A stretch of 64,000 bases of DNA, from assembly GCF_001625365.1 (NCBI RefSeq), contig NZ_LJJF01000001.1, positions 7,241,501 to 7,305,500 of the forward strand, given 5' to 3'. Numbering within the stretch: position 1 is the stretch's first letter; the number at the start of each line of letters is the position of its first letter. The stretch is from Streptomyces sp. MJM8645. Its GTDB lineage: Bacteria; Actinomycetota; Actinomycetes; Streptomycetales; Streptomycetaceae. Positions 5,160 through 32,610 of the stretch are shown here, piece after piece. Under the pieces are notes generated by a model. It was not told the origin of the DNA. It saw nothing but the letters and a program-made list of their open reading frames with translations, and searched no databases. The translations under genes and the position numbers were made by a program.

Positions 5160-6743
5160 ATGACCACCTCGGCAGCGGGCACGACGGCCACCACGGGGGA
5201 GACGGCCCCGGGGACGGAACCCGATCCGGCGGGTGAACCGGCCCCAGCCCCAGCCCCGGCCACGGCCCCAGCCCCGGCCACGGCCGCCCCGACCCCCCGC
5301 CCGAGCCCCCTGGCCCGGCTCCGGCACGGCGCGCGGACGGTCGGCGGCCGCGCCTACTGGACCACCCCGCGCCTGGTCCGCGGCCTCACCGCGCTCAGCC
5401 TGGCCGCCCTGATCGGCCTCGGCGCGGCCGCCACCACCGTCCTCGGCGGGGCCCGCGACGGCACCGACACCATCGGCCACCGGGCCGCCCCGCAGGCCAC
5501 CCGCGCCGCCGACCTCTACTTCGCGCTCAGCGACATGGACGCCCAGGCCGCCAACCTGCTGCTGGTCGGCGCCGACCCCGACTACACGACGCTGCGCAAG
5601 CAGACCCTCGACACCTACGAGCAGCGCCGCGCGCAGGCCGACGGCGACCTCCAACAGGCCGCCCAGGCCGCGGCCGCCGACCCGGCCGGCCAGCGCGCCG
5701 TCCAGCAGGTGCTCGGCCGGCTCGGCAGCTACGAGGCCCTGGTGGCCCGCGCCCAGCTGCTGGAGGAGCAGGCCAAGGCCCCGGCCGGCCAGCCCTCGCC
5801 CGCCGCCCTGGACGCCTACCGCCAGGCCACCGACCTGCTGCGCCAGCAACTGCTGCCCGCCGCCGACCAGGTCACCGCCGCCAACGAGGCCACCGTCGAG
5901 CAGGTCTACACCGAGCGCCGCGACGCCCTCGGCAGCGGCTGGTGGTGGCTGCTCGCGGTCGGCCTGCTCGCGCTCGCCGCGCTGCTCGGGCTCCAGCGCG
6001 TCCTGGCGGTGCGCTACCACCGCGTCGTCAACCCGGCGCTGGCCGCAGTCACGCTGCTCACCGCCGTCGTGCTGGCGATCGGCCTGCACCTGGTCAGCCG
6101 CGCCGACGACCACCTGGTGACCGCCAAGAGCAACGCCTACGACTCGGTGATCGCGCTCAGCCGCGCCCGTGCCGTCGCCTTCGACCTGAACGCCGACGAG
6201 AGCCGCTACCTCACCGACCCGTCCCGCGCGGCCGCCTACGAGCAGAGCTTCCTCGACAAGACCCAGGCGATCGCCCGCCTGGACGGCGCCACCCTCGCCG
6301 ACTACAACGCCCAGCTGGCGGCCGCCGCGGCCCGGCACCGCGCCGACCACACGGCCGTCCCCTTCGGCGGCTACCTCGGCACCGAACTGCACAACATCAC
6401 CTTCCCCGGCGAGCAGGACGCCGCCGAGCGGGTGCTCGCCGCCTTCCAGCAGTACCAGCAGGACGACCGGAAGATCCGCGCGCTGCGCGACGAGGGCCGG
6501 CTCAAGGAGGCGGTGACGCTCAACACCGGCCTCTCCCAGGGGCAGTCCAACTACGACTTCGACCAGCTGAGCACGGCCATCGGGGACACCATCGCGGTCA
6601 ACGCCAAGGCGATGGACTCGGCGGTCGCCGCGACCGACGGCGACCTCGACGCCGGCACGGCGGCCCTGGCCGCGGGCGCGCTGGCGGCGGCGCTCGCGCT
6701 CACCGCGCTGGGCGTCCGACCGCGCCTGCGCGAGTACCGGTAG
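5160..6743 (+). CDS. four-helix membrane protein with two extracytoplasmic helical domains
   Basis: A 527-residue protein. Residues 1-65 are a Pro/Ala-rich cytoplasmic tail with repeats of PAPAPA. Hydrophobic helices lie near 75-97, 261-282, 291-313 and 498-518. Between helices 1-2 and 3-4 are Ala/Gln-rich helical segments of about 160 and 185 residues that resemble ligand-binding bundles of chemoreceptor-type sensors. Two sensor domains on four membrane helices recall mycobacterial GlnX, which works with GlnH and PknG, but no such partners are adjacent here, so this is only a suggestion. A phased operator array precedes the gene and a perfect hairpin follows it. Confidence 0.7.
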   Translation: MTTSAAGTTATTGETAPGTEPDPAGEPAPAPAPATAPAPATAAPTPRPSPLARLRHGARTVGGRAYWTTPRLVRGLTALSLAALIGLGAAATTVLGGARDGTDTIGHRAAPQATRAADLYFALSDMDAQAANLLLVGADPDYTTLRKQTLDTYEQRRAQADGDLQQAAQAAAADPAGQRAVQQVLGRLGSYEALVARAQLLEEQAKAPAGQPSPAALDAYRQATDLLRQQLLPAADQVTAANEATVEQVYTERRDALGSGWWWLLAVGLLALAALLGLQRVLAVRYHRVVNPALAAVTLLTAVVLAIGLHLVSRADDHLVTAKSNAYDSVIALSRARAVAFDLNADESRYLTDPSRAAAYEQSFLDKTQAIARLDGATLADYNAQLAAAAARHRADHTAVPFGGYLGTELHNITFPGEQDAAERVLAAFQQYQQDDRKIRALRDEGRLKEAVTLNTGLSQGQSNYDFDQLSTAIGDTIAVNAKAMDSAVAATDGDLDAGTAALAAGALAAALALTALGVRPRLREYR

Positions 6744-6764
6744 CCGCCGGCGCCGACCCGCGGT

Positions 6765-6800
6765 GGGGCCCGGTGGCGGTATGCGTCGCCACCGGGCCCC
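6765..6800 (+). terminator. terminator-like hairpin
   Basis: A perfect 14-bp stem (GGGGCCCGGTGGCG and its complement) with an 8-nt loop lies 22 nt after the stop codon of the four-helix membrane protein. There is no U tract, as usual for Streptomyces terminators. Confidence 0.75.
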
Positions 6801-19977: not shown

Positions 19978-20517
19978 TCATGGCGCCGCCTCGTCCGGGG
20001 CGGCGGGGGCCGCGGAGGAGAGGGAGACGAGGCCGAAGGTGAACGGCGGTTCGTGGCGCGGCTTCCGCCCGCCGGCCGGGGTCCAGCGCACGGGGTTGTT
20101 TCGGCTGAGGCGCAGCGTGTCGTACCGGACGTTGCCGTGGACGGGGTCGGGGACGGGCAGGCCTTCGGCGCGCAGCGCCTCGACCACCTCGTGGGCCGGC
20201 CAGCCGAAGACGTCGATGCCGTGGAGGCCGACCGGGCAGGCGGCCGCACCCTCCACCGGCTCCACCGGGCAGCGCGACAGGAAGACGGCCCGGAGGTGCT
20301 CGCCCGGGCCCGAGCAGAGGGTGACGCCGACCCCGGGCAGGGTGAAGTGCAGCGCCCAGTTGGAGCCGCAGACGAAGGTGGGGTGCACACCGCCCGGGAG
20401 CGCCTCGCGGTGCGGGGCCAGCAGGCGGCGGACCGTCGCCTCGGTGAGGCCGAAGCGCAGTTCGGGCAGCGGCGCGGGCAGGCGGACGCCGTGGCCGGGC
20501 AGCAGGTCGATGGTCAC
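19978..20517 (-). CDS. hypothetical protein, 179 aa
   Basis: The likely start is a GTG giving MTIDLLPGHGVRLPAPLPEL. The protein looks like a compact alpha/beta domain with no signal peptide. It contains FGLTEATVRRLLAPHREA, a central FVCGSNWALHFTLPGVGVTL and FGWPAHEVVEALRAEG, suggesting two similar halves that each join a strand to an amphipathic helix. Family not recognised. The same-strand kinase gene upstream ends about 180 bases before it. Confidence 0.6.
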   Translation of the reverse strand: MTIDLLPGHGVRLPAPLPELRFGLTEATVRRLLAPHREALPGGVHPTFVCGSNWALHFTLPGVGVTLCSGPGEHLRAVFLSRCPVEPVEGAAACPVGLHGIDVFGWPAHEVVEALRAEGLPVPDPVHGNVRYDTLRLSRNNPVRWTPAGGRKPRHEPPFTFGLVSLSSAAPAAPDEAAP

Positions 20518-20696
20518 CCGTTCATGATCCCTCGTCGGATGGGCGGCGCGGGGCCCGGGGCGGGTGAGGCTCGGCTCGCGGGCGTACCGCGGCGGTGGCC
20601 CGAGCCGCGTCCTGCCGTCGGGCGTCGCGGCCGGTGAGCGGCGGCACCGACTCGCCGGGCGGGAGGCCGGCGGGCCCACCGCCCACCGTTGCCGGG

Positions 20697-22871
20697 TCAG
20701 CCGGCCGTCAGGCCGTTCAGCGCGTCGGTGACCTGACGGGCGAGGGCGGGCGGCAGCGCGGCGTAGCCCGACTGCGTCGCGGCCGGCTGGCCGGCGGCGC
20801 TCACCGCGTGGGAGAGCAGGCCTGTCAGTGCCCGGGTCGGGTGGTTGTCGCGGTTGTCCGGTGCGTCGGTGCCGCAGAACACCGCGTAGCCGACCTGGAC
20901 GAGCGGGTACGCGCCGGAGCCGGGGTTCGCGTAGTCGACGTCGACTGTCAGGTCGGTGCCCGTGCCGGTGACCTTGGCGCCGACCAGGGCAGCGGTGGCG
21001 GCCTCGGTGGTGGCGGCCACCGGGCCGGAGCCGGCGGACAGTTTGGCGGTCCGCAACCCGCCGGCGTCCTTGAGCGGGAGGAAGGCGATCGCGCCGGACT
21101 TGCCGGCCACCGTCGAGTGGACGGCGCCGAGGTCGCCGACCGTCAGACCGCCCATCGCCTGAGCGGGCCAGGAGTGGGCGACCGTCGGGTACGGCCAGGC
21201 GGCGGGCGCGGCCTTGGCGAGGTAGCGGGTGAAGCCGAGCGTGATCGGCGACACGCCCGACGGGTGGACCGCGGTGATGGCCGTGTCGGGCAGCACCCGG
21301 CCGGGGTTGAGCGTGGCGATCGCAGGGTCCCGCCAGCTGGTGATCTGGCTGTTGAAGATCCGGGCCACCGTCGGGGCGTCCAGCACCAGCGAGTCGAGCC
21401 CGGGGACGTTGTAGACGACCGCGATCGGCAGGGCGGCGAGCGGGAGTTGGGCGGGCCGGGCGGCCGTGCACCGCTTGCCGAGGCCGGCGGCCTCGTCGCC
21501 GAGGGGTGCGTCGTCGAGGGTGACGGCGTCGACCTGGCCGGCGACGAACTGTTGGCCGGCGGTGCCGCTCACGTCGGTGGCGGTCACGTTCGCGGTGGGG
21601 CACGCCTGGTGGTAGTCGGCCGTCCAACGGCTCATGACGGTCTCCAACGGGCCGTCTCCGCCCACGACAGCGCGGGCCGAGGGGCAGTCGGGCGGGCCGG
21701 ACTGGCCTGAGTGGCCTGACTGGCCGGGAGTGGACGGCGCCGAGGCGGCCGGGGGCAGGGCACCGGCACCGCCGTTGTCCTTCTCCTTCTGCCGCAGCAG
21801 GACGGCCGTGCCGCCGGCCGCGGCCAACGCGACGGCGACCGCGACGACGAGCGCGGCCGTCCGGCGGCGTGGCCGGGGGACGGCGGGGCCGGTCGGTGCC
21901 GGTATGACGGGGGGCCCGGCGGGCGGGGGGAAGGCGGGCGCGAGGGGTGCCGAGCGGACGTCCGGCTCGGGCGGAACGGGCGGAACGGGCGGCACGGCGG
22001 GCCGCTCCCACACGGTCGCGGGCCGGGTGTCGGGCGCGGCCGGGGGAGGCTCCACGCCCGCGACGGACCACGTCAGCAACGTCTCCAGGGTAGGCCGTCG
22101 GGTCGGCTCCTTGGCGAGGCAGGCCGCGACCATCAGGAGCAGCTCCGCCGCCAGCCCGGCGAGGTCCGGCTCCTCGTAGACGACCCGGAAGCCCACCGCG
22201 TGCGAGGAGTCCGCGCCGAACGGACCGCGCCCGGTGCCCGCGAAGGCCAGTACCGAACCGAGCGCGAACACGTCGGTGGCCGGGCTGGTGTCGCCGTGCC
22301 GGAACTGCTCCGGCGCCATGAACGGCGGTGTGCCGACGGCGACTCCGGTGCTGGTGAGCTGGGTGCCGTCCAGGGCGCGGGCGATGCCGAAGTCGATCAC
22401 GCGGGGGCCGTCCTCGGCAAGCAGGACGTTGCCGGGCTTGAGGTCCCGGTGCACCAGCCCGGCGCGATGGATGTCCCGCAGCGCCTCCGCGAGGCCCGTC
22501 GCCAGCCGCCGTACCTCCGGCGGGCTCAACGGGCCCTGCCGGGCGATCCGTTCGGCCAGCGAAGGGCCCGGGACGTACAGGGTGGCCAGCCAGGGCGACG
22601 GGGCGTCGGGGTCCGCGTCGACGACGGGCGCGGTGAACGCCCCGCTCACCCGGCGGGCGGCCTCGACCTCGTGCCGGAACCGGGCCCGGAACTCTTCGTC
22701 CCCGGCGAGCTCGGGGCGGATCACCTTGAGTGCCACCTGCCGCCCGGACAGTGACCGCGCGCGGTACACGACGCCCATGCCGCCCGCACCGATCCGGCCC
22801 TCCAGCCGGTACCCGCCGATCTCGCGCGGATCGTTCTCCAGCAAGGTCACGTGACCCCCGTCCTCAGACAT
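20697..22871 (-). CDS. Ser/Thr protein kinase fused to extracellular PstS-like binding domain
   Basis: A 724-residue receptor kinase. Residues 21-270 are a Hanks-type kinase: GAGGMGVV loop, Lys49, HRDLKPGN with catalytic Asp143, DFG at 160-162 and MAPEQF. A Pro-rich linker (285-342) leads to a membrane helix near 348-369. Residues about 400-720 are outside the cell and resemble phosphate-type periplasmic binding proteins (VVGGDGPLETVMSRWTADYH, SGTAGQQF, IFNSQITSWRDP, PLKDAGGL). Mycobacterial PknD-type kinases use beta-propellers; a PstS-like sensor is unusual. It may link external phosphate or another ligand to Ser/Thr phosphorylation. Ligand unknown. Confidence 0.85.
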   Translation of the reverse strand: MSEDGGHVTLLENDPREIGGYRLEGRIGAGGMGVVYRARSLSGRQVALKVIRPELAGDEEFRARFRHEVEAARRVSGAFTAPVVDADPDAPSPWLATLYVPGPSLAERIARQGPLSPPEVRRLATGLAEALRDIHRAGLVHRDLKPGNVLLAEDGPRVIDFGIARALDGTQLTSTGVAVGTPPFMAPEQFRHGDTSPATDVFALGSVLAFAGTGRGPFGADSSHAVGFRVVYEEPDLAGLAAELLLMVAACLAKEPTRRPTLETLLTWSVAGVEPPPAAPDTRPATVWERPAVPPVPPVPPEPDVRSAPLAPAFPPPAGPPVIPAPTGPAVPRPRRRTAALVVAVAVALAAAGGTAVLLRQKEKDNGGAGALPPAASAPSTPGQSGHSGQSGPPDCPSARAVVGGDGPLETVMSRWTADYHQACPTANVTATDVSGTAGQQFVAGQVDAVTLDDAPLGDEAAGLGKRCTAARPAQLPLAALPIAVVYNVPGLDSLVLDAPTVARIFNSQITSWRDPAIATLNPGRVLPDTAITAVHPSGVSPITLGFTRYLAKAAPAAWPYPTVAHSWPAQAMGGLTVGDLGAVHSTVAGKSGAIAFLPLKDAGGLRTAKLSAGSGPVAATTEAATAALVGAKVTGTGTDLTVDVDYANPGSGAYPLVQVGYAVFCGTDAPDNRDNHPTRALTGLLSHAVSAAGQPAATQSGYAALPPALARQVTDALNGLTAG

Positions 22872-23041
22872 CCGTCCCCCGTCCCCCGGTCAAACGGGAG
22901 CCAGCCTAGTACCGCACCGGCGGGCGCCGTGACGGTGGCTCGGGTCGGTCGACCTCGACCTCGACGGTGCCGGGGTGGGAGGGGACCGGGACGGCCTCGA
23001 CCCGACGTACGCGTCCTGGGTCCGGAGGTAGGACCACCTGC

Positions 23042-23063
23042 GGGGTTCGGTTTTCCGAACCCC
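23042..23063. promoter_or_regulatory. inverted repeat upstream of ABC transporter
   Basis: GGGGTTCGG-TTTT-CCGAACCCC is a perfect 9-bp stem, followed by a second smaller dyad (ATTGGG/CCCAAT). It lies between the kinase start and the ABC genes and could be an operator or a leader hairpin. Confidence 0.5.
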
Positions 23064-23128
23064 GAATTGGGGGGCCAGCCCAATCGATTGTGCGGCCGTT
23101 CATGTCCAGGATGGAGGGCATGAACGGG

Positions 23129-23899
23129 ATGACGACAGCCGCCGTGGCGGCGAGCGGTGAGGTGGCGGGCGCGGCCCTGACCGGGGACGGGCTGCACCGG
23201 GAGTACGGGCGGGGCGCGGCCGCCGTCCGGGCGCTGCGGGGGGTGTCCGTGGCCTTCGCGCCGGGGACGTTCACGGCGGTGATGGGGCCCTCGGGTTCCG
23301 GCAAGACGACGCTGCTGCACTGCCTCGCGGGGATGGACCGCCCCACCCGGGGCATCGTCCGCTGGGGTGGGACGGAGGTGTCCCGGCTGCCCGAGCGGCG
23401 GCTCGCGCAGCTGCGCCGCACCAGGGTGGGGTTCGTGTTCCAGGCGTTCAACCTGATGCCCGCGATGACCGTCGCGCAGAACGTCGAACTTCCCGGGCGG
23501 CTCGCGGGGGCGCGGCCGGACCGGGCGCAGGTGCGGGAGGCGCTCGCCAGGGTCGGCCTGTCCGGGCGGGAGCGGCACCGGCCCGGGCAGCTGTCCGGCG
23601 GCCAGCAGCAGCGGGTGGCGATCGCCCGGGCGCTGGTCGCGCGGCCGGCCGTGCTGTTCGCGGACGAGCCGACCGGCGCGCTCGACCGGGCGACCGGGCA
23701 CGACGTCCTCGACCTGCTGCGTTCCGGTGTGGACCTGGACGGGCGGACGTGTGTGATGGTCACCCACGATCCGGTGGCCGCCGGCTACGCGGACCGCGTG
23801 CTGCTGCTGGCCGACGGGCTGCTGGTGGACGAGCTCGACCGGCCGACCGCCGCACAGGTCGGCGAGCGGCTGAGCCGGCTGGGCGGGGGAGCACGATGA
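23129..23899 (+). CDS. ABC transporter ATP-binding protein (MacB/LolD type)
   Basis: A 256-residue ATPase with Walker A GPSGSGKTT, Q-loop FVFQAFNLMP, signature LSGGQQQRVAIARAL, Walker B VLFADEPTGALD and switch His in VTHDP. The Q-loop and GALD wording place it with FtsX-coupled exporters. Of four in-frame ATGs I chose the last (MTTAAVAASG), ten bases after GGAGGG. It overlaps the permease gene by four bases (ATGA), so the two are translationally coupled. Confidence 0.9.
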   Translation: MTTAAVAASGEVAGAALTGDGLHREYGRGAAAVRALRGVSVAFAPGTFTAVMGPSGSGKTTLLHCLAGMDRPTRGIVRWGGTEVSRLPERRLAQLRRTRVGFVFQAFNLMPAMTVAQNVELPGRLAGARPDRAQVREALARVGLSGRERHRPGQLSGGQQQRVAIARALVARPAVLFADEPTGALDRATGHDVLDLLRSGVDLDGRTCVMVTHDPVAAGYADRVLLLADGLLVDELDRPTAAQVGERLSRLGGGAR

Positions 23900-25284
23900 G
23901 CCCCGTCCTCTCCCTGGCGGCCGGCCAGCTCCGGCGCCGACCGGCCTCCTTCGCCGGGCTGGCGGTGGCGCTGTTCCTGGCGGTGGCGACGGTGACGCTG
24001 TTCGGCTCGCTGGTCGCCGCCCAGGCCACGGCCCCCGTCGCGGTGGCCCGCCGGGCGGTGGCCGGGCCGGGCCTGTTGCTGATCGCGGGGGCGTTCGGTG
24101 AGATCGCCGTCCTGGTCGCGCTGTTCGTGGTGGTCAATGCGCTCGGCTTCACCCTCCGCCAGCAGCACCGCGACCTCGCCCTGCTGCGGACGGTCGCCGC
24201 GACACCCCGTCAGGTGCGTCGGCTGGTGCGGGCCCAGGTCGCGGCGACCATCCTGCTGATAGCCGTGCCCGGCGGCGCGGCGGGCACCCTCGCCGCCCGG
24301 GGCTTCCTCGCCGCGCTCCAACGGCGCGGGCTGGCCGCACCTGGCCTGCGGATCCCCGGAACGCCGGTGCCGATGCTGGTCGCACTGGCGGTGGCGCTGC
24401 TGGTCGGCCTGGCCGCCACCGCCCTCGCCGCCCGACGGATCACCCGGCTCACCCCGGCCGCCGCGCTGACCGCGGACACCTCGGGCCAGCGGCGGGCGGG
24501 CGTGCTGCGGGTGCTGGCCGGGCTGGCCGTCCTGGCGGGCGGGGTGCTGCTGCTGCGGCTCGCCGCCACCAGAGGGGCCGGCGAACTGGACAAGGCGGGG
24601 CAGGCGACGATGCTCGGCTCGCTGGTGCTGCTGATCGCCCTCGCGCTGCTCGGGCCACTCGCCGCACGGGCCGTGGCCGCCGTGCTCGGCGCGCCGGTAC
24701 GGGTGCTGGCCCCCGGGGCGGGCTGGCTCGCCGACGCCAACCTGCGCGGCTACGCGGCCCGGCTCTCCTCGGCCGTGGTGCCGGTCGCGCTCCTGGTCGG
24801 GCTGTCGGGCACCATGTTGATCATGACGAGCACCGCCGAGCACGTGGTCCGTACGACCGGCGCCACGACCAGCGTCACCAAGGCGACGGACGTCTGGCTG
24901 CGCGAGGCGGAACTGGGGATGCTGGTCTGCTTCGCAGCCGTCTCCACCGTCAACACGCTGGTCGCCCTGACGGCCGATCGGTGGCGCGAGTTCGCGCTAC
25001 TGCGCCTGGTCGGCGCGACGAGGCGGCAACTGCTGCGGATGCTGTCCGTCGAGGCGGCCCTCACCACGGCGGTCGGCGTGCTGCTGGGTGCGGCGGTGGC
25101 GGCCGTCGCCACGGGGGCGTTCGCCCGGGCGGTGACGGGGTCGGTGCTGCCGGTGGTACCCGGCGCTGCGTGCGGCTGGGTGGTGGCGGGCGCGGCGGCG
25201 CTGACGGTACCGGGGATCCTGGGCACCGGCCTGCGGGCGATCCGGGGGCGCGCGGTCGAGGCGGTCGGGGGTGAGCGGGGGTGA
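23896..25284 (+). CDS. FtsX-like ABC transporter permease
   Basis: A 462-residue membrane protein with one N-terminal helix and two FtsX-type blocks, each with the hallmark cytoplasmic segment LALLRTVAATPRQVRRLV and FALLRLVGATRRQLLRML. It pairs with the upstream ATPase to make an exporter or mechanotransmission complex, as in resistance to membrane-active compounds. A NarL-type histidine kinase follows about 100 bases later, which suggests the transporter is controlled by that system. Confidence 0.88.
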   Translation: MSPVLSLAAGQLRRRPASFAGLAVALFLAVATVTLFGSLVAAQATAPVAVARRAVAGPGLLLIAGAFGEIAVLVALFVVVNALGFTLRQQHRDLALLRTVAATPRQVRRLVRAQVAATILLIAVPGGAAGTLAARGFLAALQRRGLAAPGLRIPGTPVPMLVALAVALLVGLAATALAARRITRLTPAAALTADTSGQRRAGVLRVLAGLAVLAGGVLLLRLAATRGAGELDKAGQATMLGSLVLLIALALLGPLAARAVAAVLGAPVRVLAPGAGWLADANLRGYAARLSSAVVPVALLVGLSGTMLIMTSTAEHVVRTTGATTSVTKATDVWLREAELGMLVCFAAVSTVNTLVALTADRWREFALLRLVGATRRQLLRMLSVEAALTTAVGVLLGAAVAAVATGAFARAVTGSVLPVVPGAACGWVVAGAAALTVPGILGTGLRAIRGRAVEAVGGERG

Positions 25285-25390
25285 CCGGGGGTGAGCGGGC
25301 CCTTCGCCAGGTGCGGCGGGGTCGGGTCGAAGCCGCCTGGGTGTGTTGTCGAGGCGGTGAGTGCGGTGAGTGGGAGTGGTGAGGTGGACG

Positions 25391-26701
25391 GTGGCTGAGC
25401 GTCGGCGGTATCTGTCGGTGTGCGGTGGCGAATTGGCCTTCGCGCTGCTCGGGCTGCCCATCGGCGTGCTCGGCGGGGTCTACGCCGTGGCCGTGCTCTA
25501 TGCCGGGGCGTTGCTCTCGCTCACCGTGCTCGGGCTGCCGTTCGTGGTGGCCGCCCTGGCCGGGGCGCGCGGGCTGGGCGGGCTGCACCGGCGACTGGTC
25601 GGGCGGCTGCTCGGCGAGCCGGTGCCGGCCCCGGGGGCGCTGCCCCGGCCGTCCGGGGCGATCGCCCGGGGTCGGGCGGTGCTGACCGACCCGGTGGCCT
25701 GGCGGGCACTGCTCTACCTGCTGCTGCGGCTGCCATTGGGGGTGCTCGGCTTCCTGGTCGCGGTCGGATTGCCGCTCAGCTGCGTCTGGTTGGTCGGCTT
25801 CCCGCTGTGGGTGCGCCTGCTGGAGTCCGGGCCAAGGCCGGTCGGCTGGCCGGACGTGGCCGGGGCCCCGGTCGGGCTCGCCGTACTGGCGGTGGTGCCG
25901 GCGGCGCTGCGGGCGGTGAGCGCGGCCAATCGGGGCCTCGCCCGGTTGCTGCTCGGCCCGGTGCGGTCGCAGGAGCGGGTGCGTGAGTTGGAGACCGCCC
26001 GGGCCACCCTGCTCGCCGAGAACACCGACCGGTTGCGCCGTCTCGAACGCGATCTGCACGACGGGACGCAGGCGCAACTGGTCGCGCTCGCCATCACGCT
26101 CTCGCTGGCCGACGACGCCCTCAGCGAGGTCACCGGCGAGGCCGTTGGCGTCGCCCAGCCCGAGCCGACCGGGCCGACCGGCCCGCCCGGCACTCCGGAG
26201 GCCGAGCGCCTGCGCACCCTGGTCGACCGGGCTCGCCGGCAGACCGACGACACCATCGCGGAACTGCGCCGGCTCACCCGGGGCATCCACCCGGTGGCGC
26301 TGGACGGCGGCCTCGCCCAGGCGCTGCCCGGGCTCACCGCCACCGCGCCGGTGCCGGTCACGGTCCGGCTGGATCTGAGGGAGCGGCCGGACGCGGCGAT
26401 CGAGCAGGCCGTCTACTTCTGCGCGGCAGAGTTGCTGACCAACGTCGCCAAGCACAGCGGCGCGGCGGCGGCGGAGCTCACGGCCAGCGCAGCCGACGGG
26501 CGGGTGCGGCTGACGGTGCGCGACGACGGCCGCGGGGGCGCCGCTCCGGGCGGGGGCTCCGGCAGAGGCTCCGGTTCGGGCTCCGGTTCGGGCCTGGCGG
26601 GCCTGGCCGCGCGGCTCGCGGCGGTGGACGGGGTGCTGCGGGTGGACAGCCCGCCGGGCGGGCCGACGACTGTCACCGCCGAACTGCCGAGCAGCCTGTG
26701 A
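25391..26701 (+). CDS. NarL-family sensor histidine kinase
   Basis: A 436-residue protein. The N-terminal half has several membrane helices, paired as in Streptomyces kinases with a short sensor. The phosphorylation site is in LRRLERDLHDGTQAQL (HisKA_3 type). The ATPase domain has a degenerate N box (CAAELLTNVAKHS) and a Gly-rich region lengthened by GSGSGSG. I chose the GTG after GAGGTGG; earlier in-frame GTGs exist. It is convergent with its likely partner regulator. Confidence 0.85.
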   Translation: MAERRRYLSVCGGELAFALLGLPIGVLGGVYAVAVLYAGALLSLTVLGLPFVVAALAGARGLGGLHRRLVGRLLGEPVPAPGALPRPSGAIARGRAVLTDPVAWRALLYLLLRLPLGVLGFLVAVGLPLSCVWLVGFPLWVRLLESGPRPVGWPDVAGAPVGLAVLAVVPAALRAVSAANRGLARLLLGPVRSQERVRELETARATLLAENTDRLRRLERDLHDGTQAQLVALAITLSLADDALSEVTGEAVGVAQPEPTGPTGPPGTPEAERLRTLVDRARRQTDDTIAELRRLTRGIHPVALDGGLAQALPGLTATAPVPVTVRLDLRERPDAAIEQAVYFCAAELLTNVAKHSGAAAAELTASAADGRVRLTVRDDGRGGAAPGGGSGRGSGSGSGSGLAGLAARLAAVDGVLRVDSPPGGPTTVTAELPSSL

Positions 26702-26745
26702 CGGGTGCCCGCGGCGGGGCCGTCCACGGAACCGCTGCTCCCGGC

Positions 26746-27411
26746 TCAGCCGCCGTTCTCGGAGAGGTAGGTGAGGACGGCTTTCACCCGCCGGTTGTCG
26801 GCTTCGGTCGCCGGCAGGTCGAACTTGGCGAAGACGGCGGCGACGTGCTTCTCCACCGCCCGCTCCGAGACCACGAGCAGCCCGGCGATCGAGCGGTTGG
26901 AGTGACCCTGCGCCATCAGCTCCAGCACCTCCCGTTCGCGCGGGGTGAGCGCGTCGACGCGGCTGCGCCGCCCGCCGTGCATCAGGCCGTTGACGATCTC
27001 CGGGTCGAGCGCCGTGCCGCCGGCCGCGACCCGCTGCAGCGCGTCCACGAACTCCGAGGTGCGGGCCACGCGTTCCTTGAGCAGATAGCCGACGCCGGCG
27101 GCGCCACCTGCGAGCAGCCGGGCCGCCCAGGCGGTCTCGACGTGCTGGGAGAAGACCAGGATGCCGACCCCGGGCGAGGTGGAGCGGAGCTCGACGGCGG
27201 CGCGGATGCCCTCGTCGGTGTGGCTGGGCGGCATCCGGATGTCGACCACGGCCACATCGGGCCGGTGCTCGGCGACGGCGGCGACGAGTTCGGGGGCCGT
27301 TCCGGCGGTGGCGACCACGGCGCACCCGCGCGCGGTGAGGAGTTCGACCATGCCGTCCCGGAGGATCACCGAGTCCTCGGCGAGGACGACGCGGAGCTGC
27401 TTCTCGATCAT
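26746..27411 (-). CDS. NarL/LuxR-type response regulator
   Basis: A 221-residue regulator. The receiver domain (1-125) has the acidic pair AEDS, phospho-acceptor Asp in VVDIRMPP and Lys in LLKERV. The C-terminal LuxR helix-turn-helix is LTPREREVLELMAQGHSNRSI followed by SERAVEKHVAAVFAKF. It lies tail to tail with the histidine kinase, which is unusual for a cognate pair but still the best pairing. Its likely target is the adjacent ABC exporter. Confidence 0.9.
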   Translation of the reverse strand: MIEKQLRVVLAEDSVILRDGMVELLTARGCAVVATAGTAPELVAAVAEHRPDVAVVDIRMPPSHTDEGIRAAVELRSTSPGVGILVFSQHVETAWAARLLAGGAAGVGYLLKERVARTSEFVDALQRVAAGGTALDPEIVNGLMHGGRRSRVDALTPREREVLELMAQGHSNRSIAGLLVVSERAVEKHVAAVFAKFDLPATEADNRRVKAVLTYLSENGG

Positions 27412-28372: not shown

Positions 28373-29377
28373 TCACCGCTGGTCGGCGTGGCCGGTCAGG
28401 ACGGTGGTGAAGATCGGCTCGCCGTTCTGGTGGCCGGTGACGGTGGTGGTGAGGGCGTCCGGGTCGTCACCGGGGGTGTGCCGGGCGGTGATCGTGGTGG
28501 CGGCGTCGTGCTCGGCGTACCGGTGGTAGGTGGTCGAGGCGGAGGCGGGGATGACGGTGGCCGGTGAGACGAGCGCGTTGGTGGCCTGGCGGGCGGCCTC
28601 CAGCAGGACCATGCCGGGGACGTGGTCGTTGGCGTGGTCGAAGAGGATCGGGTGCCAGGGATCGGGGGTGAGGTGCCAGGTCCCGGGTGCGTCGGCCGGG
28701 GTCAGGACGACGTCGCAGGGGCGGATCCGGCCCACTCGGCCCGGGGCCAGCGGCTCGCCGGAGACGGCGGGCGCCGGGTCGGCCTCGCGGCGGGCCCCGC
28801 GTAGCCGCCGGTAGGTGGAGTCCGGCACGGTGGTGAACCGGGTGTGTCCGGTGGCGGTGAGGTGGGCGCCGCGTCGGATGACGGCGCTGAGGGTGAAGTC
28901 GATGGTGGTGCCGCTCCGGCGCGGCTGCGGGACGAGTCTGGCCTCGATGCTGAGGTCGGTGGGCGCCGCGCCGATGAGCAGTTGGCGGGGGCGGGTGGTG
29001 TAGTCGAGGTTCCACATCATGAACTTGTGGTCGAGCGGGACGCCGAACCGGGTGTGCGCGAGGTAGAGCCCGGCTTGGCGGATCGTTTCAGCGGTCTGGA
29101 TCGGGTCGTGCCGGGTTCCGTCGGGGGTGGTGAAGAAGGTGTGGGCGCGCGGCCACTGCGCGGTGACGGCGAAGGTCGTCTCGTTCAGCTGCTCGCTGCC
29201 GGTGAGGAAGACCTCGGCGTGGCAGGCCCGGTGGACGTACTCCTTGGCAACGGTGCTGGTCAGGCGCGGTGCCGGTCCGGTCGGCACGGACGGCCCGGCG
29301 GTGCGGCCGGGGGTGGTGCCGTGGTTCGCGCCGGCGGCGCGGGAGATGGCGGGGGCGCGGTAGGCAAGCAGGGTCAT
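28373..29377 (-). CDS. AfsA/ScbA-family gamma-butyrolactone biosynthesis protein
   Basis: A 334-residue protein, the usual AfsA size, starting at an ATG seven bases after GGAG. It has two hot-dog-like AfsA repeats. The residues shown to be essential in ScbA fall at E97 (QTAETIRQAG), E260 and R263 (GMVLLEAARQA). AfsA joins a beta-keto acyl-ACP to dihydroxyacetone phosphate, the first step to A-factor-type hormones. Its receptor gene is divergent, the standard arrangement, and an autoregulatory-element-like site lies 52 bases before the start, so feedback control by the receptor is expected. Confidence 0.92.
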   Translation of the reverse strand: MTLLAYRAPAISRAAGANHGTTPGRTAGPSVPTGPAPRLTSTVAKEYVHRACHAEVFLTGSEQLNETTFAVTAQWPRAHTFFTTPDGTRHDPIQTAETIRQAGLYLAHTRFGVPLDHKFMMWNLDYTTRPRQLLIGAAPTDLSIEARLVPQPRRSGTTIDFTLSAVIRRGAHLTATGHTRFTTVPDSTYRRLRGARREADPAPAVSGEPLAPGRVGRIRPCDVVLTPADAPGTWHLTPDPWHPILFDHANDHVPGMVLLEAARQATNALVSPATVIPASASTTYHRYAEHDAATTITARHTPGDDPDALTTTVTGHQNGEPIFTTVLTGHADQR

Positions 29378-29428
29378 GGGAGCGCTCCGGAAGGCCGTGG
29401 CGGGCGGGGTGGGCTGCTCAGGGCTCGT

Positions 29429-29455
29429 AAGATACGTACCTTCCGGTTTGGTTTT
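29429..29455. promoter_or_regulatory. ARE-like site A (before afsA-like gene)
   Basis: The sequence contains AGATACGTACC, two bases, then CCGGTTTGGTTTT. It matches the autoregulatory element of butyrolactone receptors, such as the BarA site AGATACATACC-AA-CCGGTT, at nearly every fixed position. Confidence 0.75.
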
Positions 29456-29784
29456 CAAGGAGCCCGAACGAAGGTTCGTTGGCGGCCGAGCGTGGTCGGG
29501 TGGTCGCTCCAGGTGCCGTGTGATGGCCGTCCGGGTGGACCGAGCCTGGGGTGGATGCCGCCTGGCCTGCAAAGGAATCCCCAAAAGTGGGATGACAGGT
29601 GCATTATCACAGCGGGCCGTTTTCGGTGGGATGCGGCCAGAAGTGGGGAGCCGGATTCCGGCTCTGTCGGCTGGGGGAGGGGTGGCGGTCGCTTTCCCGC
29701 CCTGTGCCGTCCACGCGGTTTTCCTTCGCTCGAAGGCGGGTGCATGCGACCTGGGGAGGAGGGATCGCCGGTTGACCGGCGGGT

Positions 29785-31647: not shown

Positions 31648-31845
31648 CTAGGGCGTGTTTCATCATTCGCGTCGGATCAGCGCGCGGCGGTGGGCGCCCG
31701 GCTGGGCGTGCCGGCGAAGCGTCCTCGTACTGGGTGTACTTGGACGTTTCGCCGGTGCGGTCAGGCGGGATGCCTGGGGGCACCTCCCAGCCGCCAGGCT
31801 GGGGGAGCGTCGCGCGCCCGGCGGGAATGATGAAACACGCCCTAG
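31648..31845. mobile_element. MITE-like element, 198 bp with 21-bp terminal inverted repeats
   Basis: The ends are perfect inverted repeats: CTAGGGCGTGTTTC.. at 31648 and its complement ending ..GAAACACGCCCTAG at 31845, 21 bases each including CTAG. CTAG target duplication is typical of some IS5-group elements. The interior has no transposase but can fold strongly (GGCGAAGCGTCC/GGACGTTTCGCC and CCTCCCAGC/GCTGGGGGAG). It lies between the SARP and MerR genes. The duplicated CTAG at its right end supplies the TAG stop of the MerR gene. Confidence 0.8.
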
Positions 31846-32600
31846 ATCTGCTCCGGCCGGGGGCGGCCGGTCAGGCCGAGGTAGTGGCCGAGCCGGGCGG
31901 CCGCGTCGAGCATGGCCAGGCCCTGGGCGGTGAGCCTGCGCTGCCAGCCGTCGAGGGCGTCGGCCAGGGAGGCCGTGCCGCCGGCCGTCCGCACCTGTCG
32001 GAGCACGGTGGCGATGTGGTCCAGCGGGTAGCCGCCGCGCCGGAGCAGGTGGGCGAGTTCGGCGTCGCGGATGTCGTCGGCGCGGAAGACGCGGTGTCCG
32101 GTGGCCTGGTCCCGGGCGGGGGCGAGGATGCCCGCGCCCTCCCAGTTGCGCACGGTCGCCGGGGTGACGCCGAGCCGGTGGGCGAGTTCGCCGATGCTCA
32201 GGACGGCACCGTCCACCGCGGGCTCCGCCGACGGGCCCGCCGCAAGATCCGCTGCAATGTCCCGCGCCGCGTCGGGCCGCGCCGCAAGGTGGTGCACGGC
32301 CTTCCGCACCGCGTCCAGGGTGTCCCGGTCGCGGAGCAGTTGGCCGTGCCCGCGGTCGATGGCCGTCAGGGCGTCGTCGAGCCCGCCCCGGTGGAGCGCG
32401 GTCATGATCCGGCCGCCGGTCGCGTGGCCGTACGCCGCGACGAGGGAGCGGTAGGCGTCGAGCGCGGCCGCGTGCACCTCGGTGTAGATCCGGTAGCCGC
32501 TGGCGGTGCGTTCGGCGGGCGGGAGGAAGCCGTCCCGTTCGTAGTTGCGTACGGCCTGGGCCGAGAGGCCGTGCCCGCGGGCGAGGTCGGAGGGGCGCAT
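31842..32600 (-). CDS. MerR-family regulator with two MerR-type HTH domains
   Basis: A 252-residue protein. Residues 1-70 are a MerR helix-turn-helix (RPSDLARGHGLSAQAVRNYE, then DGFLPPAERTASGYRIY). After a helical linker a second MerR domain begins near residue 135 (LSIGELAHRLGVTPATVRNWE, then GAGILAPARDQATGHRVF), followed by a short helical tail. Doubling of the domain is rare. Its TAG stop lies in the terminal repeat of the MITE. It is divergent from the erythromycin-esterase homologue, which it probably controls. The ATG was preferred over a GTG three codons upstream. Confidence 0.85.
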   Translation of the reverse strand: MRPSDLARGHGLSAQAVRNYERDGFLPPAERTASGYRIYTEVHAAALDAYRSLVAAYGHATGGRIMTALHRGGLDDALTAIDRGHGQLLRDRDTLDAVRKAVHHLAARPDAARDIAADLAAGPSAEPAVDGAVLSIGELAHRLGVTPATVRNWEGAGILAPARDQATGHRVFRADDIRDAELAHLLRRGGYPLDHIATVLRQVRTAGGTASLADALDGWQRRLTAQGLAMLDAAARLGHYLGLTGRPRPEQI

Positions 32601-32610
32601 GGTGGTCACC

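Follow-up and report, generated by a model that had tools for sequence, protein, structure and literature searches.

Which signals are sensed by the Ser/Thr receptor kinases of bacteria is presented as an open question in PMC6069109, and the described systems that lie closest to the one reported here place a binding protein and a kinase in various arrangements. In the GlnH–GlnX–PknG system, as outlined in two articles (PMC6069109; PMC9769921), a binding protein outside the cell likewise controls a Ser/Thr kinase inside it, but the function is divided among three separate proteins, the ligands are amino acids, and the kinase is soluble. With regard to single-chain arrangements, Krupa and Srinivasan (2005; PMC1262709) list a Streptomyces coelicolor kinase carrying a bacterial extracellular solute-binding protein and a Nostoc kinase carrying an ANF-receptor domain, neither of which is described there as PstS. 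The former (gi|21223285) resembles the protein reported here in that a Ser/Thr kinase and a periplasmic-binding-protein domain are joined in a single polypeptide of a related actinomycete, but the description given there, of a domain of Glu/Gln solute-binding type, sets it apart. The same source attributes PQQ repeats to AfsK of Streptomyces (PMC1262709), the nearest curated kinase model to our kinase, whereas the protein reported here has none. Finally, WP_112443064.1 of Streptomyces cadmiisoli, which NCBI names "bifunctional serine/threonine-protein kinase/ABC transporter substrate-binding protein", also starts with an AfsK-like kinase (57% identity, residues 3–254) followed by a binding-protein domain, but its ectodomain is a Peripla_BP_6 and not a PBP_like_2. 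We found no paper on a PstS–kinase fusion, in literature that did not include most subscription papers; this argues only weakly that none exists. The sensing design, which the first-pass annotation had deemed different from that of PASTA or beta-propeller kinases, is thus novel in part: the fusion of a kinase to a binding protein is a known design, already realized with other classes of binding proteins, and what is new here is the PstS-type class.

The gene lies in the window, by which we mean the whole stretch of 64,000 nucleotides of Streptomyces sp. MJM8645 DNA that was analyzed, and its features are collected in table 1. The 724-aa frame runs uninterrupted from an ATG at 22871 to a stop at 20697, with a start position that is uncertain by 7 residues: the region common to the other fusions starts only at residue 8, which is encoded by GTG, and the equivalent residue is a Met in two of them (L062 and L075). 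The kinase half conforms to a Hanks-type Ser/Thr kinase: its Pkinase match reaches 132.9 bits against a cut-off of 31.7 (Pfam), and the P-loop (GAGGMGVVY, 28), the catalytic Lys (VALK, 46), the HRD (HRDLKPGN, 141), DFG (160), and APE motifs (MAPE, 180, within GTPPFMAPEQ) are all found, which bears out the intactness claimed in the first-pass annotation; the kinase is accordingly described here as complete in its motifs and predicted to be active. The single membrane helix announced by the same annotation agrees with the strongest hydrophobic stretch of a Kyte–Doolittle scan, right behind RPRRR, a second and weaker hydrophobic window being located at residues 235–237, within the kinase domain; a stretch like that of the window protein was judged by eye to be present in 8 other fusions. 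The linker from kinase to helix is Pro-rich, and the third-position GC of the three parts (0.93 in the kinase, 0.90 in the linker, and 0.95 in the ectodomain) is consistent with one coding frame. Past the helix, PBP_like_2 matches residues 401–669 with 80.3 bits for a cut-off of 27 (Pfam). Hydropathy, Pfam, and fold thus place a membrane helix between a kinase and a binding-protein domain of PstS fold within a single chain, as had been proposed, and the kinase is predicted to reside in the cytoplasm with the binding-protein half outside.

Table 1. Coordinates, within the window, of the receptor kinase gene and of the features of its product
Feature	Coordinates	Strand	Basis or remark
Whole gene, receptor Ser/Thr kinase	20697..22871	(-)	724 aa; GTG at residue 8 is a possible start
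Hanks kinase domain, residues 21-266	22074..22811	(-)	Pfam Pkinase, motifs, NCBIfam AfsK best model
Predicted membrane helix, about residues 338-359	21795..21860	(-)	Kyte-Doolittle scan; RPRRR just before
PstS-fold ectodomain, residues 396-724	20700..21686	(-)	PBP_like_2, predicted model, PDB 4lvq match, Cys columns
Asp453-Asp454, one of them corresponding to Asp56 of E. coli PstS	21510..21515	(-)	MAFFT: Asp453; phmmer: Asp454
Remodelled phosphate loop HPSGVSPIT, residues 536-544	21240..21266	(-)	Stand-alone PstS: HRSDxSGTT or near

Among NCBIfam models, AfsK (NF053615) fits best, albeit with 307.5 bits for a cut-off of 1300 and over residues 10–267 only. No PQQ family was found among the Pfam matches of the C-terminal half, where PBP_like_2 stands instead, and PASTA repeats gave no Pfam match, the PknB_PASTA_kin model scoring 191.4 against 450 bits. 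Related kinases with other C-terminal parts were found in 20 relatives (56–65% identity), these parts being judged by eye only, except in L154, where Pfam identifies a PQQ propeller, and in L148 (1438-3696, +), where an AfsK-like kinase of the order-level relative G019 is followed by an SBP_bac_6 ectodomain (Pfam) in an independent binding-protein fusion. Besides, a plasmid of S. cadmiisoli encodes two adjacent kinase/substrate-binding-protein fusions (L165:3022-5244 and 5244-6768, +), the first of which has Peripla_BP_6. Taken together, the PstS-type, L148, and S. cadmiisoli fusions indicate that at least three classes of binding proteins have been acquired by this kinase type. Near the two plasmid-borne fusions lie a lactococcin 972 family bacteriocin gene and a TfuA-like gene.

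The PstS fold of the ectodomain was confirmed by the structure prediction that the first-pass annotation had recommended. The AlphaFold2 model, for which 36 sequences of ectodomains and PstS proteins were aligned, reached a pLDDT of 93.1 and a pTM of 0.91, and its top Foldseek match was Mycobacterium tuberculosis PstS3 (4lvq, TM 0.80), onto which it aligns with a Z of 34.7 and an rmsd of 3.2 over 312 residues, at 28–29% identity. The true PstS rows of the alignment may bias the model toward PstS, but the match of the window protein's sequence alone to PDB 4lvq (E 1.5e-34) is independent of these rows, and the likeness of the ectodomain to PstS3, by sequence and by fold, is far beyond chance. 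If the fold is shared, the window protein nonetheless differs from PstS3 in being fused to a kinase, anchored by a membrane helix, and stripped of phosphate-site residues; as a PstS, it scores 149.2 bits, below the curated TIGR00975 cut-off of 205. Its Cys396, Cys424, Cys468, and Cys666 are common to stand-alone PstS, which fits a domain located outside the cell, and these four Cys, along with Trp513, Asn522, Pro528, Tyr655, and Pro656, are fold landmarks present in 11/11 fusions.

The phosphate site tells a different story from the fold. We took the phosphate contacts of Escherichia coli PstS to be Thr10, Ser38, Asp56, Arg135, Ser139, Gly140, and Thr141, and mapped positions 56 and 135–141 by alignment with the E. 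coli chain; Thr10, which falls outside this alignment, was mapped by hand from Trp19, and the Ser38 column shifts by one between aligners. At positions 10/38/56/135/139/140/141, the window protein has Gly/Ser/Asp/Pro/Ser/Pro/Ile, meaning that Ser38, Asp56, and Ser139 are kept when positions 10, 135, 140, and 141 are changed. By comparison, in a set of 56 stand-alone PstS (after removal of identical or contained sequences), a non-random sample of high-scoring matches of which most belong to the window's family, Ser38, Asp56, Arg135, Ser139, Gly140, and Thr141 are each found in 56/56, and all 56 have Ser or Thr at position 10. In the fusions, Asp56 is kept in 11/11, Ser139 in 9/11, Ser38 in 7/11, Thr141 in 5/11 (with Ser in 4 more), Arg135 in 2/11 (Pro in 7/11 and Gln in 2/11), and Gly140 in 0/11, position 10 being Gly in 5/11. 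Several more columns that are invariant in the 56 stand-alone PstS are also altered in the fusions, and no new residue signature common to the 11 fusions was found at the eight site positions counted.

The near-disappearance of Arg135 and the disappearance of Gly140 from the fusions, when both are universal in the stand-alone set, make direct phosphate sensing by the ectodomain unlikely and favor a different ligand or a protein partner. For the window protein itself, phosphate sensing through the classic site is rejected on the site residues, and its ectodomain is predicted not to bind phosphate. The first-pass annotation proposed direct control of Ser/Thr phosphorylation by an external solute; that this solute is phosphate is not supported, in view of the replacements Arg135->Pro, Gly140->Pro, Thr141->Ile, and Thr10->Gly and of the stand-alone PstS of the same genome (L166), whose loop is intact (HRSDDSGTSY); an intact-loop stand-alone PstS is also present in the 4 other fusion-carrying genomes compared (G004, G008, G023, and G075). 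That the ectodomain senses a solute of any kind is something we infer. On the other side of the family, Arg135 is retained by L036 and L088, the latter being changed solely at Gly140 and Thr141 among the eight positions counted, and some fusion members may still bind phosphate. In this regard, E. coli PstS Asp137 mutants were crystallized with phosphate, according to the titles of structure entries, so that binding can survive a change at one site residue.

The survey of the fusion's spread, also advised in the first-pass annotation, returned a sparse distribution. In the genus of the window, 5/70 genomes match the window ectodomain at E 1e-52 or better, and a sixth carrier (G023) was added by profile search (6/70). 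At the level of the family (394 genomes), a profile of nine fusion ectodomains yielded ten matches of 439–533 bits among the best matches listed, all ten being kinase fusions; the next listed match stands at 361 bits, and a further fusion, L088 in G180, was recovered at 354 bits. Overall, the fusion is present in at least 11 of the 394 sampled genomes of the family, a count to be read as a lower bound since it was obtained with ectodomain profiles (A1 and A3) of fusions already found and is biased to similar ones. The carriers include Kitasatospora xanthocidica (L053, which is the G008 ORF) and Streptomyces sp. NRRL F-6131 (L054, which is the G044 ORF), and the frame is open in 11/11 fusions. 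In a class-wide search (394 genomes), 21 passed E 1e-101, a threshold that would overlook more distant fusions; all came from the window's family, with fusion-level scores in G000 and G179 only. No plasmid record covers 80% of the window protein, and the long frames found upstream of PstS in G009, G226, G189, G158, G223, G135, G249, G141, G222, G386, G316, and G376 gave no in-frame kinase match. Elsewhere in the window's genome, a PBP_like_2 match (G000:C1:3674785-3675786) lies within a 1055-aa open frame, perhaps another fusion involving such a fold.

To look at the origin of the fusion, both halves were placed in trees. The fusion kinases stand on one side of a branch opposed to 21 other kinases (support 98/98), and the fusion ectodomains on one side opposed to 18 stand-alone PstS (100/100), a quick ectodomain tree with 29 stand-alone PstS giving a support of 100 as well; with long branches flagged in both the kinase and the ectodomain trees, the fusion probably arose once. 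L036 and L088, which both have Arg135, pair in both trees and, in that of the ectodomains, adjoin the stand-alone PstS, suggesting a fusion that preceded a stepwise loss of the phosphate site. A single fusion event with fully concordant halves is, for its part, partly rejected. Indeed, the kinase tree groups L030 with L002 (98/89) when the ectodomain tree groups L002, L003, and L021 without L030 (100/100), and the pS of the L002–L021 pair (G004–G075) is 0.226 in the kinase half versus 0.07 in the ectodomain half, so that recombination between the halves of the fusion gene is likely.

The two halves also differ in how fast they change. Identity is 93% in the kinase versus 43% in the ectodomain between L002 and L030, and 83% versus 42% between the window protein and L002, with closer values for L029–L075 (96% and 86%) and L002–L021 (95% and 96%). 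We computed pN/pS from nine codon-aligned pairs, which share genomes and are thus not independent, and used the stand-alone PstS encoded by these genomes as a control. For G004–G023, the kinase (91% identity) gives 0.19 (bootstrap 0.12–0.28), the ectodomain (44% identity) 1.25 (1.04–1.52), and the stand-alone PstS (96% identity) 0.36 (0.14–1.03). Over the nine pairs, the kinase ranges from 0.12 to 0.31 and the stand-alone PstS, of which some pairs may not be orthologues (72–76% identity with G008), from 0.33 to 0.73. The ectodomain ratio amounts to 1.06–1.35 in the 6/9 pairs joining different ectodomain types, the lower bootstrap bound being at least 1.00 in 3 of these 6, and to 0.33, 0.71, and 0.82 in the three pairs with like ectodomains. 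Nei–Gojobori counts are rough at 44% identity and under strong codon bias, and ectodomain values above 1 are a lead, not proof; diversifying or strongly relaxed selection would explain the fast ectodomain change. For G216–G357, dN/dS is 0.14 in the kinase, 0.555 in the ectodomain, and 0.242 in the stand-alone PstS, and other stand-alone PstS pairs go up to 0.69, hence rapid change also occurs outside the fusions. Between G004 and G023, the difference at four-fold sites of conserved residues is 0.32 for the ectodomain and 0.28 for the kinase, both under the saturation level of about 0.5, so that the ectodomain does not seem to be the older half. A swap of the L030 ectodomain for an old foreign one is not favored, the four-fold differences being as large as in the kinase.

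The domain order, the fold, the kinase motifs, the loss of site residues, the single clade of at least 11 fusions, and the fast ectodomain change can all be read from sequence and model. As for what the protein does, we consider it reasonably probable that it is a receptor-type AfsK-like kinase continued by a helix and an outer PstS-derived domain with a remodeled phosphate site, which most likely serves to bind a protein partner or a small molecule other than phosphate. A cytoplasmic AfsK-like kinase would be linked through one membrane helix to a PstS-derived binding-protein domain outside; the other small molecule or the protein partner would bind the remodeled ectodomain and alter its opening, closing, or pairing; and this change would pass via the helix, switching the kinase on or off. 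Both the existence of a ligand and the switching through the helix are steps that we infer, and how likely a new ligand is relative to a protein partner or to residual binding of phosphate is a matter of judgment. It is distinctly unlikely that the protein is a phosphate receptor after all, in which a rearranged pocket would bind phosphate, a phosphate ester, or a phosphonate and report it to the kinase: such a receptor would agree with the retained PstS fold, with Asp56 in 11/11 and Ser139 in 9/11 fusions, and with the Arg135 of two members, but it has to face the three loop replacements of the window protein (Arg135->Pro, Gly140->Pro, Thr141->Ile), the loss of Gly140 in 11/11, and the several further altered columns that are invariant in the 56 stand-alone PstS.

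The variation of the site residues among members, with no new common signature, together with fold landmarks kept in 11/11, would also suit an ectodomain devoid of any small-molecule ligand, serving as a fixed scaffold that would mediate pairing or dock a protein that is extracellular or bound to the wall; we regard this as rather unlikely, given that the predicted fold spans the whole PstS length and that Asp56 is invariant in the fusions. That the ectodomain is simply decaying under relaxed selection, with a kinase running without its input, is very improbable: ectodomain pN/pS is near 1 in the six pairs of different ectodomain types, but the frame is open in 11/11, the fold landmarks are kept, the ratios fall to 0.33, 0.71, and 0.82 between close relatives, and the confidence of the model is high. 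Conceivable, although doubtful, is a captured PstS turned variable recognition receptor, where positive selection would act on the ectodomain next to a conserved kinase and where strains would read different molecules (from competitors, kin, phages, or hosts); if the fast ectodomain change is positive selection, the kinase would be a recognition receptor and not a nutrient sensor. With the preferred reading of a receptor kinase for another ligand or partner, a kinase would have gained PstS, a well-understood binding protein, whose pocket was modified afterward. The members have reached different stages of this change, L088 and L036 being nearest PstS and L030 and the window protein far from it. 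This series of fusions offers a way to test whether a transport protein can become a receptor for a new ligand.

To compare the genomic context, 17 neighboring genes of the window were matched against the regions around 10 other fusion loci. Two of these loci gave a match to an ABC ATPase and three gave one to a LysR regulator, at 31–40% identity, and beyond the kinase gene and these two weak matches nothing was seen at the 10 loci, hence no conserved neighborhood. Among the matches listed, similarity extends far past the kinase gene for L133 versus L137 only, and a scan of 20300-23200 for promoters and terminators found none. Within the window, an ABC ATPase, an FtsX-like permease, a histidine kinase (Sensor domain), and a response regulator are encoded at 22967-27411, on the opposite strand and 96 bases from the kinase gene. 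A gene with an AfsA domain (A-factor type signal synthesis, 141.5 bits) is located about 5.5 kb from the kinase gene (28373-29584, -), and farther on, a single protein harbors two MerR-type DNA-binding stretches (31842-32609, -).
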